Below, piece after piece: positions 26,191 to 63,154 of a DNA stretch of 64,000 nucleotides. Position numbers and translations under genes: made by a program. The notes below the pieces were generated by a model. The model had not been told where the DNA came from. It ran no database searches and was given only the letters and a program-made list of their open reading frames with translations. Source of the DNA: Thiohalobacter thiocyanaticus (GTDB taxonomy: Bacteria > Pseudomonadota > Gammaproteobacteria > Thiohalobacterales > Thiohalobacteraceae); the NCBI RefSeq assembly GCF_002356355.1, contig NZ_AP018052.1, forward strand, positions 868,001 through 932,000, given 5' to 3'. How positions within the stretch are numbered: position 1 is the first letter of the stretch; each line of letters begins with the position of its first letter.

Positions 26191-26733
26191 TCAGGCCGGG
26201 TGAAGACGAAATGCAATCCCGGGCGTTTCCGCTTGCGTCATGCGGTACAACCCCAGCAGAGTCTTGGCGTCGCGGATGGTCCCGTCACCGGCCCATTCCA
26301 GCGCCTGTTGCAGTGATACCCAGTGACATTCGATCAGTTCGTCGGCCTGGTGATCGGTCGCGACAGCCACAAGTTCCGTAGCGAGAAACAGGTGGATAAC
26401 CTCATCGCAGAAGCCCGGCGTGGTCAGGATCTCACCGAGTTCGCGCCATTCGGCGGCCTGCAGCCCGGCTTCCTCTTTCAGTTCCCGCTGTGCTGTGACC
26501 TGTGGTGCCTCCCCGGCTTCCAGCTTGCCCGCCGGCAGTTCCCACAGCCAGCCGCCGGCCGCATGGCGGTACTGGCGCAGCAGGCAGACCTGGTGGTCTT
26601 CATTCACCGCCACGACTGCGGCCCCGCCGGGGTGGCGGACCACTTCCAGCGTCTGGTCACGGCCGTCGGGCCGGGTGAAGTGTTCCCGACCGAGGTCCAC
26701 CAGTTCCCCTTTGTAGAGCGGAGTACGGATCAT
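26191..26733 (-). CDS. Nudix hydrolase (ADP-ribose pyrophosphatase type)
   Basis: 180 residues. A complete Nudix box is present: GKLEAGEAPQVTAQRELKEE followed by AGL. The preceding WELPAGKLE and following TTPGFCDEVIHLFLA fit the ADP-ribose pyrophosphatase (NudF-like) subgroup. It should hydrolyse ADP-ribose or related nucleoside diphosphate derivatives to AMP and sugar phosphate. It overlaps the upstream reductase gene by four bases (ATGA), the last gene of a three-gene operon. Confidence 0.88.
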   Translation of the reverse strand: MIRTPLYKGELVDLGREHFTRPDGRDQTLEVVRHPGGAAVVAVNEDHQVCLLRQYRHAAGGWLWELPAGKLEAGEAPQVTAQRELKEEAGLQAAEWRELGEILTTPGFCDEVIHLFLATELVAVATDHQADELIECHWVSLQQALEWAGDGTIRDAKTLLGLYRMTQAETPGIAFRLHPA

Positions 26734-27566
26734 TCCAGCAGGTCGTAGCAGCCGAGCAGCTGCCCGCAGCCCTCGGGGGCGAGCGGGTCGTAGTAGAGTT
26801 GGGCCAGCTGCAGCCGCGGCGCGGGTTCCAGGTGGCTGCCGTAGACGAAGGTGCTGAAGTCCTCGCCGCCCAGGATGCGGCCGGCGAAGGTCAGGTACAG
26901 CCGGTCCAGACGGCCGGCCTGAAGCAGGGTGTTGAGCACATGCGGGCCGCCGATGACGTAGATGCTGCGATAGCCGGCCGCGGCCAGGGCGTCCAGGGTG
27001 CGGCCGCCCTCGGCCTGGTGTCCCTCACCCACGTAGTGCGCCTGTACCCCGGCCTGTTCCAGCGCCTGGATCCGCTGCGGGTCGGCATCGGCGCCGGTGA
27101 GCAGATGCAGCCGCCGGTGCGGGTAGGCCGCGAGGGCCTGGACCGGGATGTCCAGGCTGGCGCTGATGATGGCAATGTCGGGCTGGGGCGACAGCCCCTG
27201 ATCCAGACGCCAGCGGCGCAGGTCGTCGAACTTCCGGCCGGCGCCGACGGGCAGGGTATCCTGGGCCTGGCCGATGGCGTATTCGCGGAAATAGCGCGCG
27301 CTGGTGATCAGCAGGTCGGCCTGGGTGCCCAGTTCCTGGAACAGCCGCCAGTCGCGCGGATTGGCAATGGCTGGCGGGACCTGGTGGGTGTCGCGGCCGG
27401 GTGCGGCCACGCCGATGCGGCCATCCAGACTGCTGATGAAATTGCTGTAGACAAAGGGCCGGCCGGGCTCGCCGCGGTGATGCAGCCGCTGCTGCAGATA
27501 CAGCCCTTCGAGGGCATGGTCCCGGCTGCTGCGCGGATAGAGTTGCTGGATGCTGGTGTCGGACAT
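26730..27566 (-). CDS. RibD C-terminal / dihydrofolate-reductase-fold protein
   Basis: 278 residues. The fold of bacterial riboflavin reductase domain is recognised from FVYSNFISSLDGRIG near residues 39-53, IYVIGGPHVLNTLLQAGRLD and LYLTFAGRILGG. It lacks the deaminase domain of RibD, so it may reduce another substrate with NADPH. Its start overlaps the stop of the spermidine-synthase-like gene (TGATG), and its stop overlaps the Nudix start. Confidence 0.82.
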   Translation of the reverse strand: MSDTSIQQLYPRSSRDHALEGLYLQQRLHHRGEPGRPFVYSNFISSLDGRIGVAAPGRDTHQVPPAIANPRDWRLFQELGTQADLLITSARYFREYAIGQAQDTLPVGAGRKFDDLRRWRLDQGLSPQPDIAIISASLDIPVQALAAYPHRRLHLLTGADADPQRIQALEQAGVQAHYVGEGHQAEGGRTLDALAAAGYRSIYVIGGPHVLNTLLQAGRLDRLYLTFAGRILGGEDFSTFVYGSHLEPAPRLQLAQLYYDPLAPEGCGQLLGCYDLLE

Positions 27567-28357
27567 CAGGTGAACAACCATTGCAGTGGCAGGGTGTTGT
27601 GGCGGCGCAGCTGGCGATACAGGTCGGGGAAGTCGAGTCCCAGCCGCTGTTTCAGCGCCGGCGCGGTGGCCTGCAGGGACCGGCGCGACGGCAGCCGCTG
27701 GAGGTGCGGGGCGCCGAACACGATCAGGTTGTTGCGCGCCTCCACCGGCAGGCGCAGCGAGCGCTGCCCGAGCGCAGCCTCGAAGCAGCGGATGTGGGCG
27801 CGGCAACGGGCCTTGTCGGTATTCCAGAGATTGAGGGCGATCAGGCCGCCTTCCCGCAGCCGCCGCTGACAGGCCTGCAGGAAGGGCTCGCAGGCCACGC
27901 CGGGATGCAGGCCGACGGCATCGAAGGCATCCACCAGGATCAGGTCGTACAGCGGCTGGGCCGGGTTGTGGATCAATTCGGTGCCGTCTCCGTGCTCGAT
28001 GCGGATGCGCGGATGCTCCGGCAGCTGAAAAAAGCGCCGGGCGATCTCGATCACTGCCTCGCGGTACTCGACGACGGTGATATCGGCCTCGGGATAATGG
28101 TGGGCCAGAAAGCGCAGCAGCGAGCCGCCGCCGAGGCCGATGATGAGGATCTCCGCGGGGCGGGGCTGGAACAGCAGCCCGGCCAGCATGGCCCGGGTGT
28201 AGCTCAGCACCAGGGTGACGGGGTCGGCATGGCTCATGCTGCTCTGGCGGGCGGCGGTGCCGAAATAGAGCGAGCGCGTGTACTGGTCGTCAATGACTTC
28301 CAGCACGCCGTGCGCGTCGCGTTCGATATGCACCAGTTGCCCCCGGCCGGCCAGCAT
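27566..28357 (-). CDS. Spermidine synthase-like methyltransferase-fold protein
   Basis: 263 residues; ATG 28357 has GGGAAG seven bases upstream. It has the Rossmann fold of polyamine aminopropyltransferases: ILIIGLGGGSLLRFLAHHYP, VVEYREAVIEIARRFF, and DLILVDAFDAVG. The catalytic Asp block in true SpeE (a GGGDGG motif) is here GLGGGS, so function as spermidine synthase is doubtful; many such orphan paralogs have unknown roles. It begins a tight operon with the RibD-like and Nudix genes. Confidence 0.8.
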   Translation of the reverse strand: MLAGRGQLVHIERDAHGVLEVIDDQYTRSLYFGTAARQSSMSHADPVTLVLSYTRAMLAGLLFQPRPAEILIIGLGGGSLLRFLAHHYPEADITVVEYREAVIEIARRFFQLPEHPRIRIEHGDGTELIHNPAQPLYDLILVDAFDAVGLHPGVACEPFLQACQRRLREGGLIALNLWNTDKARCRAHIRCFEAALGQRSLRLPVEARNNLIVFGAPHLQRLPSRRSLQATAPALKQRLGLDFPDLYRQLRRHNTLPLQWLFT

Positions 28358-28429
28358 CGTTGTTCTTCCCCTCCCCCGGCGATTCCGCCCATTGTAATGA
28401 CAAGGGCCTGGCTGCCAAGCAAAAAATGA

Positions 28430-28456
28430 CCGGCCCCGCGCAGGGCGCGGGGCCGG
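28430..28456 (-). terminator. Intrinsic terminator of the IscR-like gene
   Basis: A perfect 12-bp GC stem (CCGGCCCCGCGC with GCGCGGGGCCGG) and a three-base loop. On the minus strand it is followed by GTCATTTTTTG, a T-tract. It lies 32 bp beyond the stop of the IscR-like gene. Confidence 0.8.
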
Positions 28457-28487
28457 CCGCCGGAGGAGGGCACCGGGTCCGGCGGCG

Positions 28488-28949
28488 TCAGGCCGCGGAG
28501 CGGTGCAGGTTGCTGAACGGGCTCTTGGGCACAGTGGTGATGCGCGGCGCGTCCTTGGTGGTGGCGACCTCGGCCAGGCTGACATTGTCCAGATAGTCGT
28601 AGATCTGGTGGCTCAGGCGGTCCCACAGGCGCAGACTGACCGGACGGGCCTCGTCCTCGGGCATCAGCGGCTTGGAGGCGGTGGCAGCCACCGAGTCGTC
28701 GACGGCGCGCAGGATGTCGGCAATGCTGACCTCGCTGGCCGGACGCCGCAGGCAGTAGCCGCCGCCGGGGCCGCGCAGGCCGGTGACCAGGCCGTGCTTG
28801 CGCAGCTGAGCGAACAGCTGCTCCAGATACGACACCGAGATCGACTGTTCCACGGAGATGTCGGCCAGAGTCACCGGTCCCTGCTTGTGGCGCAGGGCCA
28901 GTTCGATCATGGCAGTGATGGCGTAACGTCCTTTGGTTGAAATCTTCAT
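28488..28949 (-). CDS. IscR-like Rrf2 regulator lacking the Fe-S ligands
   Basis: 153 residues; ATG 28949 has GAGAGGT upstream. The first 85 residues follow E. coli IscR closely: ISTKGRYAITAMIELAL, the winged helix ISVSYLEQLFAQLRKHGLV and GPGGGYCLRRPAS; Glu43 is kept. The cluster region is altered: IscR Cys92, Cys98, Cys104 and His107 are all absent (ATASKPLMPEDEARPVSLRL), and the only Cys is at 66. So it should bind DNA of the IscR type without a [2Fe-2S] cluster, or sense another signal. No isc genes are adjacent. Confidence 0.87.
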   Translation of the reverse strand: MKISTKGRYAITAMIELALRHKQGPVTLADISVEQSISVSYLEQLFAQLRKHGLVTGLRGPGGGYCLRRPASEVSIADILRAVDDSVAATASKPLMPEDEARPVSLRLWDRLSHQIYDYLDNVSLAEVATTKDAPRITTVPKSPFSNLHRSAA

Positions 28950-29022
28950 GGTTTTACCTCTCAGCTTATCCAATGCGGTTGCATTCGCGGGGCGAGTTGA
29001 AAACTGACTGTCTTGGTCAGGA

Positions 29023-29052
29023 ATCCTACTAATAACCCACTTGGATAGTCAA
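29023..29052 (-). promoter_or_regulatory. Promoter of the IscR-like gene, with possible self-operator
   Basis: On the minus strand TTGACT (29052-29047), an 18-bp spacer and TAGGAT (29028-29023) form a promoter about 75 bp before the start codon. The spacer and flanks (GACTATCC...ATTAGTAGG) loosely resemble IscR type 1 sites. CTGAC/GTCAG at 29005-29020 is a further small inverted repeat. The rest of 28950-29269 carries the divergent rsd promoter, not placed. Confidence 0.5.
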
Positions 29053-29269
29053 GAATTGTAGCAGAAAAATTCCCTGTTGTGAGTGATAAATCTTTGTAAC
29101 CTTTCTGTATCGGAATATATCCAGCTGAAAACCAATAGGAAATTTCAGCGCTCAGGAAGCGGCGGCAGGGCGGCTGGACAGTGGCGAGCCGTCGGGGGAT
29201 ACTGAGTCATTGACACAGAAAATCAATCGGTTATAGATTCATATCCAGGATGGAGCGAGAGTGAGAGAC

Positions 29270-29758
29270 ATGTCGAACAATAAAGCCAACGACCTCATGC
29301 CGGGCGAGGACCGGCGTCAGCGCCAGCGGGAACGGTTGCACGCCCTGGTCAATGCACGCAATCAGACGCTGGTCGAGTACTCCAGCCTGGCGGGCATCCG
29401 CCCCTACACCCCCGAGCACCGCACCGAGGATGCGCTGAAGCGCTTCTGCCAGATCCTGGTGGATTATGCCGCCACGGCGCATTTCCAGCTCTACCGCTAC
29501 ATCGCCGACGGCAAGGAGCGCCGCCAGGCCGTGCGCGCCATCGCCGAGCAGATCTATCCCCAGATCGTCTCCAGTACCGATGCCATCCTGGACTTCAACG
29601 ACCGCTATGATGTCGCCTCGCTGGATGACGGCCGTGTCGAGCACCTGGCCGAAGACCTGTCGCAGCTGGGCGAGATCCTGGCCGACCGCATCCAGCTCAA
29701 GGATCAGATCATCGAGGCCCTGGACGGCAGCCGTGCCGGGGAGCATAGCCAGCAGTAG
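29270..29758 (+). CDS. rsd: Rsd/AlgQ-family anti-sigma factor
   Basis: 162 residues, near E. coli Rsd (158). The match to family residues is clear: TLVEYSSLAGIRPY, LKRFCQILVDYAATAHFQLY and EQIYPQIVSSTDAILDFNDR. Rsd binds the primary sigma factor RpoD, and in E. coli it also interacts with HPr and SpoT. It favours use of alternative sigma factors in stationary phase. ATG 29270 follows GAGCGAGAGTGAGAGAC. An in-frame GTG at 29261 is a possible alternative. Confidence 0.85.
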   Translation: MSNNKANDLMPGEDRRQRQRERLHALVNARNQTLVEYSSLAGIRPYTPEHRTEDALKRFCQILVDYAATAHFQLYRYIADGKERRQAVRAIAEQIYPQIVSSTDAILDFNDRYDVASLDDGRVEHLAEDLSQLGEILADRIQLKDQIIEALDGSRAGEHSQQ

Positions 29759-62713: not shown

Positions 62714-63154
62714 ATGCGTTTGACCACTTTCAGCGACTACACCCTGCGGGTATTGATCTACCTCGCCGTGCAGGAGCACTCCGTAACCACCATCGCCGGG
62801 ATTGCCGAGGCTTACGGCATTTCCAAGAACCACCTGATGAAGGTGGTCCATCAGCTGGCCGGCGACGGTTATGTGGAGACCACCCGCGGCAAGGGCGGCG
62901 GGGTCCGGCTCAAGCAGGCCCCCGAGGCGATCTCCATCGGTGCCGTGCTGCGCCGCACCGAGGCCGATTCGGTCCTGGTGGAGTGCTTTCGTCCGCAGGG
63001 CTCTGAGTGCCGCATCGAGACGGCCTGCATGCTGCGCGGGATATTTCACCAGGCCGAAGAGGCCTTCTACGGCGTGCTGGACGACATCACCCTGGCGCAG
63101 GTGGTGGAGAACCGGGCCCGGCTGCAGGCGCTGCTGCCCGGTACGGCGGATTGA
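62714..63154 (+). CDS. nsrR: Nitric-oxide-sensing Rrf2 regulator
   Basis: 146 residues. Rrf2 winged helix (ISKNHLMKVVHQLAGDGYVE, RGKGGGVRLKQAP). Cluster ligands are Cys91, Cys99 and Cys105 (VECFRPQGSECRIETACML) with Asp8 (TFSDYT), as described for the [4Fe-4S] NsrR ligand set. NO destroys the cluster and releases DNA. A near-perfect palindrome of the NsrR type lies 770 bp away, before the convergent TusE-fusion gene, which is thus a probable target. Its own promoter is not clear. Confidence 0.9.
   Translation: MRLTTFSDYTLRVLIYLAVQEHSVTTIAGIAEAYGISKNHLMKVVHQLAGDGYVETTRGKGGGVRLKQAPEAISIGAVLRRTEADSVLVECFRPQGSECRIETACMLRGIFHQAEEAFYGVLDDITLAQVVENRARLQALLPGTAD

Follow-up and report, generated by a model that had tools for sequence, protein, structure and literature searches.

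A cluster-less IscR paralogue of Thiohalobacter thiocyanaticus, possibly an IscR branch fixed in its apo form

Introduction

What does an IscR-type regulator respond to when the ligands of its Fe-S cluster have been lost, and does it still belong to the Fe-S regulon? The question is raised by a gene located in a 64,000-nucleotide stretch of the Thiohalobacter thiocyanaticus genome (contig NZ_AP018052.1, positions 868,001 to 932,000, hereafter the window), the product of which, a cluster-less paralogue of IscR, is designated here as IscRx. Holo-IscR represses isc via two type I motifs (PMC9362927), and the cluster-less variant IscR(C92A) of Escherichia coli binds to sites of type 2 and acts as a regulator at promoters of this type (PMC12594620). 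Below, the genomic context, conservation and predicted regulation of IscRx are analyzed and compared with these two modes of action.

Results

The gene and its protein

IscRx is encoded on the minus strand (28488..28949, ATG start at 28949, stop included) and comprises 153 amino acids, sharing 54% identity with one intact IscR of the same genome. Its affiliation with the Rrf2 family follows from both PF02082 (117.8 bits, cut-off 30) and TIGR00738 (122.5 bits, cut-off 73.3). Of the NCBIfam models the IscR one (TIGR02010) was the best, its score of 160.9 bits lying below the equivalog cut-off of 207.55, and the CymR model NF047409 gave 106.9 bits, below its cut-off of 195. The best phmmer matches in the PDB were E. 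coli IscR chains (E-value 2.6e-34).

The functional residues were compared in an alignment with 98 rows of intact IscR, among them E. coli IscR. At the positions of Cys92, Cys98, Cys104 and His107, IscRx has Ser, Glu, Pro and Leu, and the only cysteine of the window protein is Cys66 (codon at 28752..28754, minus strand, as computed from the ATG at 28949), belonging to the wing strand. The wing motif GPGGGY and the Glu43 of the recognition helix are retained. An earlier note on this DNA had read the protein as having an IscR-like DNA-binding half and none of the four Fe-S ligands, and had proposed an alignment with IscR relatives as a check; both statements hold in that alignment, in which no ligand position is occupied by Cys or His, and the former also agrees with the PDB matches.

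The AlphaFold2 model of IscRx (mean pLDDT 78.0) displayed a winged helix, a long helix 104-121 and a low-confidence tail, with an average pLDDT of 60 in the block 91-100. Foldseek recognized CymR (best match 2y75) and apo-IscR as the nearest folds; the modelled fold is that of IscR/CymR. Annotation by similarity would name the gene IscR and imply a cluster sensor, which the protein is probably not.

Orthologues and conservation

With each locus counted once (G317 and L037 being one sequence), 22 orthologous IscRx loci were revealed, spread over three families of Gammaproteobacteria. The order of the window is represented by 11 sampled genomes, all of one family (f1), and ten of them carry an orthologue, scoring 268 to 298 bits with profile A1, all other matches being at or below 181 bits. 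In the remaining genome, G009 (93% complete), profile A1 found no orthologue, which counts against the reading preferred in the Discussion. Seven further orthologues came from named contigs, including a Thiogranum sp. MAG, and a survey of the class gave ten genomes of three families with at least 239 bits, the next match having 198 bits; because this survey covered 369 genomes, the families named here are a minimum.

The four cluster ligands are absent from all 22 loci, so their loss is an inherited one; 15 fetched loci, which gave no protein by the start pattern or were omitted, with identical proteins removed, are not counted in this comparison. In a tree built without the ligand loop all 16 IscRx rows formed one clade (SH-aLRT 99), apart from the intact paralogues IscR1 and IscR2, many other forks of the same tree being unresolved. 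Three other Cys-less IscR-type proteins (L027, L050, L058) fell outside this main clade; therefore, the ligands have probably been lost more than once.

The conserved neighbourhood of IscRx in the window includes a divergent Rsd/AlgQ-like gene (29261..29758, plus strand) and, downstream on the minus strand, SpeE-like, RibD-like reductase and NUDIX genes (approximate span 26191..28330). These names, read from the sequences, are tentative. That Rsd, NUDIX and the RibD-like gene have remained neighbours of IscRx argues for its vertical inheritance and against a recent horizontal transfer, as far as gene order can tell. In many relatives a further gene, roughly 1.4 kb long and seemingly encoding a YbaK-HDOD fusion, is located between Rsd and IscRx (loci L143, L145, L248, L249 and L038); it is absent from the window.

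Within f1, the mean identity of the DNA-binding half (residues 1-84) was 90.8% for IscRx (21 pairs), 82.5% for IscR1 (21) and 85.7% for IscR2 (10), the IscR2 means here and below resting on a smaller genome set than the other two. For the ligand loop the corresponding values were 39.0, 81.2 and 76.7%, and for the helix following it 70.4, 70.2 and 67.8%. Judged by these values, DNA binding by IscRx appears to be strongly constrained and cluster binding unconstrained. Cys66 is present in 21 of the 22 loci; in the 98 intact rows the same position holds 14 different residues, with three Cys and an entropy of 2.48 bits. Thr56 and Arg69 of IscRx are fixed in the same manner. The proteins of 21 of the 22 loci end with Ala-Ala (window 28491-28496), a terminus found in 10 of the 98 intact rows, and the tail preceding it is variable; the terminal pair resembles a ClpXP-type tail and may be a protease tail.

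Operators and promoter upstream of IscRx

A sigma-70-like promoter, TTGACT-18-TAGGAT (29023..29052, minus strand), was recognized upstream of IscRx by consensus match only. It is overlapped by a type-1-like operator A (TTGACTATCCAAGTGGG, 29036..29052, minus strand), which covers the -35 hexamer; operator B (CTGACCAAGACAGTCAG, 29004..29020, minus strand), with a perfect core, lies 32 bp from A. Site A is weak, with two mismatches over the 17-mer, which we also counted against the preferred reading.

Sought in the 200 nt before the gene, the core TGAC-N7-(G/C)TCA was perfect in 16 of the 22 IscRx loci and had at most one mismatch in all 22, the latter figure including L036, with 93 nt upstream of the gene before the contig start and a match that is probably due to chance, and G010, in which the listed one-mismatch stretch differs from the aligned site. 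In 100 rounds of shuffling the mean numbers were 0.15 (maximum 2) and 2.98 (maximum 8), respectively. The 67 other gene starts of the window had no perfect core, and 16 of them reached at most one mismatch, for which reason the count of perfect cores is the telling one.

All ten f1 promoters of IscRx possess two sites 31-33 bp apart, one of them over the -35 hexamer; outside f1 there is one operator and no conserved pair. Tandem sites also precede suf, at a distance of 32 bp in G000, G001 and G002 and of 35 bp in G004, so that the layout of the window IscRx promoter is the one seen at the suf operon of the same genome (32 bp). No type-1-like site was found at suf of G005 and G009, and the suf promoter of G010 was not recovered. 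Upstream of suf and iscR genes, the best type-2-like matches had at least two mismatches, none being convincing; this lack of a target site, together with the type-1-like sites at suf of the window genome, likewise speaks against the preferred reading. Like IscR, IscRx has, by sequence match, a putative promoter of its own with type-1 operators. Given the Fe-S control predicted for this promoter, the constitutive regulator suggested in the earlier note is unlikely.

Other type-1-like sites

Searched over the whole genome, a loose type-1 pattern was too noisy (668 matches against 476 in the control), and the zero-mismatch suf site (2424161) was absent among the matches listed. Because of this noise a stricter pattern, TTGACT-N6-(G/C)TCA, was adopted; in the 11 f1 genomes it gave 63 matches against 24 in the reversed control, both strands being counted and a palindromic site hence twice. 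The surroundings of chosen matches were inspected in 16 fetched stretches and L220. Type-1-like matches were located before suf, iscR2, ErpA-like, small ABM-like and cold-shock-like genes, the last beside clpS/clpA; these gene names, read from the sequences, are tentative. Other matches to the strict pattern, inside genes or elsewhere, may be due to chance.

A perfect type-1-like site (G000:C1:3125279-3125294; L163, L220 site 5280) overlaps the promoter of the small ABM-like gene, and the same pairing of gene and site occurs in G004, G005, G006 and G008; by this pairing, the gene may be an undescribed member of the Fe-S regulon. Another perfect site, a palindromic one (G000:C1:2083374-2083390; L301), lies between clpS/clpA and the cold-shock-like gene, and G002 and G005 likewise have a site in this position.

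Linkage to iscU

Directly 3' of IscRx in the window there is a terminator-like hairpin with a T run (28428..28458, minus strand; consensus match only), therefore the gene is probably a single-gene unit in this genome. Outside f1, iscU, on its own, is the next gene after IscRx in all 12 loci; in f1, a position as the first gene of an isc operon is absent. The iscU start lies 34-59 nt behind IscRx in 11 of these loci and 115 nt behind it in the twelfth, G317, in which iscU is truncated by the contig end. A recent duplication would account for the identical partial copy in G317, which may also be an assembly artefact.

The iscU linked to IscRx is the sole NifU_N match in five of six genomes (G090, G214, G162, G272 and G367); G317 has an additional match beside iscS. 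The isc operons of G090, G214, G272 and G367 (L268, L269, L270 and L271) read iscR-iscS-(iscA)-hscB-hscA-fdx and have no iscU, as judged by eye, with some short genes masked by antisense frames. Apparently, one promoter controls both a cluster-less IscR and the IscU scaffold there, since iscU sits behind IscRx and is gone from isc. In f1 the link is lost, iscU being either absent or placed in a normal isc operon. The IscU tree was poorly resolved and was not used to deduce the direction of the iscU move. The former statement that the gene is separated from isc genes is thus correct for the window genome, which has no IscU by PF01592, and fails for the family, given the 12 loci outside f1. Taken together, the type-1-like operators and, in the relatives, the promoter-proximal position before iscU place the gene, as predicted from sequence, within Fe-S biology.

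Intact IscR and other Fe-S genes of the same genomes

In the window genome (one contig of 3,233,441 bases) three more matches were found, L002, L003 and L004. The first two have all four ligands each, which answers the question, posed earlier, of whether a second, intact IscR exists: there are two. L004 (window 62714-63154), an Rrf2 gene resembling NsrR, encodes three cysteines and has an IspG-like gene nearby. L003 occupies the usual isc place behind a cysE-like gene, iscS and iscU being missing there; an intact iscR remaining behind cysE, with iscS and iscU gone from the locus, was noted at L006 (8778-9269). The Pfam model NifU_N (PF01592) detected no IscU in the window genome, the best match to the IscS model had 374.1 bits (cut-off 643.2), and SufB/D-type proteins are present.

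An intact IscR was found in 9 of the 9 orthologue-bearing genomes of one check, and every genome checked has one, the check covering those nine and other f1 genomes, with G162 left out. The f1 genomes keeping IscRx possess ISC only (G006 and G003, with IscU as fragments there), SUF only (G000, G001, G002 and G005) or both ISC and SUF (G004, G007, G008 and G010).

Discussion

Because IscRx has lost the ligands, has kept the DNA-binding half and still lies inside the Fe-S circuit, it probably signals by its amount and not by a cofactor. Our preferred reading, which we consider about evenly poised between right and wrong, is that of an IscR branch fixed in its apo form, the input of which is its expression level, set through repression by holo-IscR. 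Of its elements, the sequence, the ligand loss, the pattern of conservation, the operator sequences, the regulon neighbours and the iscU linkage in relatives are observed, and we infer that the protein carries no cluster and binds DNA, that holo-IscR represses the gene, and that there are target sites on which IscRx acts. IscRx would bind DNA as an IscR-type dimer without an Fe-S cluster, and intact holo-IscR would repress its promoter through the tandem type-1 operators. Upon cluster shortage, repression would be lifted jointly at IscRx, suf, iscR2 and the erpA-like gene, and IscRx would accumulate. The accumulated protein, as an always-apo IscR, would regulate targets of the apo kind (type-2-like sites), feedback on its own promoter also being possible. 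The two jobs of the single E. coli IscR would thereby be divided between two proteins.

Against this reading we weighed three others. That IscRx is an iscR copy which has lost its function and is decaying could be supposed from the loss of the cofactor site and the disappearance of iscU from its neighbourhood in f1. However, neither intact paralogue has a DNA-binding half as conserved as that of IscRx, the reading frame is open in every locus, and promoter and synteny are conserved; the pattern of conservation led us to reject a decaying pseudogene, and we regard such a relic as scarcely credible. Another role would be that of a dominant-negative partner: by dimerizing with intact IscR, or by competing with it, at type-1 sites, IscRx would relieve repression whatever the cluster supply. 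The near-identity of the DNA-binding half and the dimer helix to those of intact IscR, the co-occurrence of both proteins in one genome and the shared regulon, as judged by motif, are consistent with it, but Glu43 is invariant in the set A2, and in E. coli this residue keeps apo-IscR off type-1 sites. An IscR E43A mutant bound to DNA is reportedly the subject of PDB entry 4hf2, going by its title. We hold a dominant-negative role to be decidedly improbable.

Sensing through Cys66 had been put forward in the earlier note as well; the residue could be a thiol reacting with electrophiles, quinones or sulphur species, or the single Cys ligand of a cluster bridging the protomers. Its near-invariance in IscRx, against the 14 residue types of the intact rows, suggests something beyond plain DNA binding, and there are precedents: within the Rrf2 family, SifR senses quinones through a single thiol (PMC9218516), and IscR of Rhodobacter sphaeroides needs one Cys, C142 (PMC4618611), a bridging cluster having been proposed for it. 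Yet the orthologue of G367, in which operator and iscU are kept, carries Ser66 and is devoid of cysteine, and so neither a thiol nor a single-Cys cluster is essential in that lineage. Moreover, the model places Cys66 in the wing strand (65-67), distant in sequence from SifR C102 and R. sphaeroides C142, and Thr56 and Arg69 are equally fixed. A part of that claim survives, in that the near-invariance points to some role of Cys66; as the sensor the residue is dispensable at least in G367, and we consider this explanation unlikely.

The main caution about the locked-apo reading comes from the Rhodobacteraceae, the IscR of which lacks three Cys and was once thought to be cluster-less; the R. sphaeroides protein, in spite of lacking the usual Cys, binds a cluster via C142 (PMC4618611). 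The description of IscRx as permanently apo in the earlier note coincides with the best-supported reading and, given that case, has to be put as inferred. The Rhodobacteraceae type, with which D. shibae IscR (PDB 7zpn) is grouped by its entry title, resembles IscRx in the three missing Cys and one Cys elsewhere. In R. sphaeroides, however, this is Cys142, in the C-terminal part of a protein that is encoded by the first gene of the isc-suf operon and binds a cluster (PMC4618611), whereas the only Cys of IscRx is residue 66 of the DNA-binding half, not a C-terminal one, and IscRx stands beside an intact IscR.

Compared with E. coli IscR (TIGR02010; PDB 4hf0/4hf1/4chu), IscRx has the same fold, GPGGGY, Glu43, recognition helix, length and upstream type-1-like operator, and differs by its missing cluster ligands, the variable loop in their place and a score under the TIGR02010 cut-off. 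CymR of Bacillus subtilis and Staphylococcus aureus is likewise an Rrf2 fold without an Fe-S cluster, but it shares 37-42% identity with IscRx (Foldseek), occurs in other hosts and serves cysteine metabolism. SifR/YwnA, a cluster-free repressor of the Rrf2 type with one reactive Cys (PMC9218516), is sequence-distant, has its Cys elsewhere, and no linkage to an Fe-S regulon was seen. The IscRx family is distinct by the company of intact IscR, the position of its lone cysteine and the iscU operon. In the literature searched, in which subscription journals were thinly covered and ISCR elements produced noise, making the absence a weak one, no cluster-less IscR paralogue beside an intact IscR was found.

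It is conceivable, although we would sooner doubt it, that several gammaproteobacterial lineages pair a cluster-bearing IscR acting at type-1 sites with a type-1-controlled, cluster-free paralogue that runs the apo programme and in some of them apparently shares a transcript with the sole IscU. If this split is real, a transcriptional relay has taken the place of a cofactor switch, and IscRx would show that cofactor sensing and output are separable in evolution. According to PMC12594620, it is not known why productive regulation at type-2 promoters requires apo-IscR when either form binds; a conserved, natural cluster-free IscR beside an intact one would offer a locked-apo protein for probing type-2 regulation. 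That iscU can move out of the isc operon to a place behind a different IscR-type gene, in turn, changes the way in which Fe-S regulons should be annotated.
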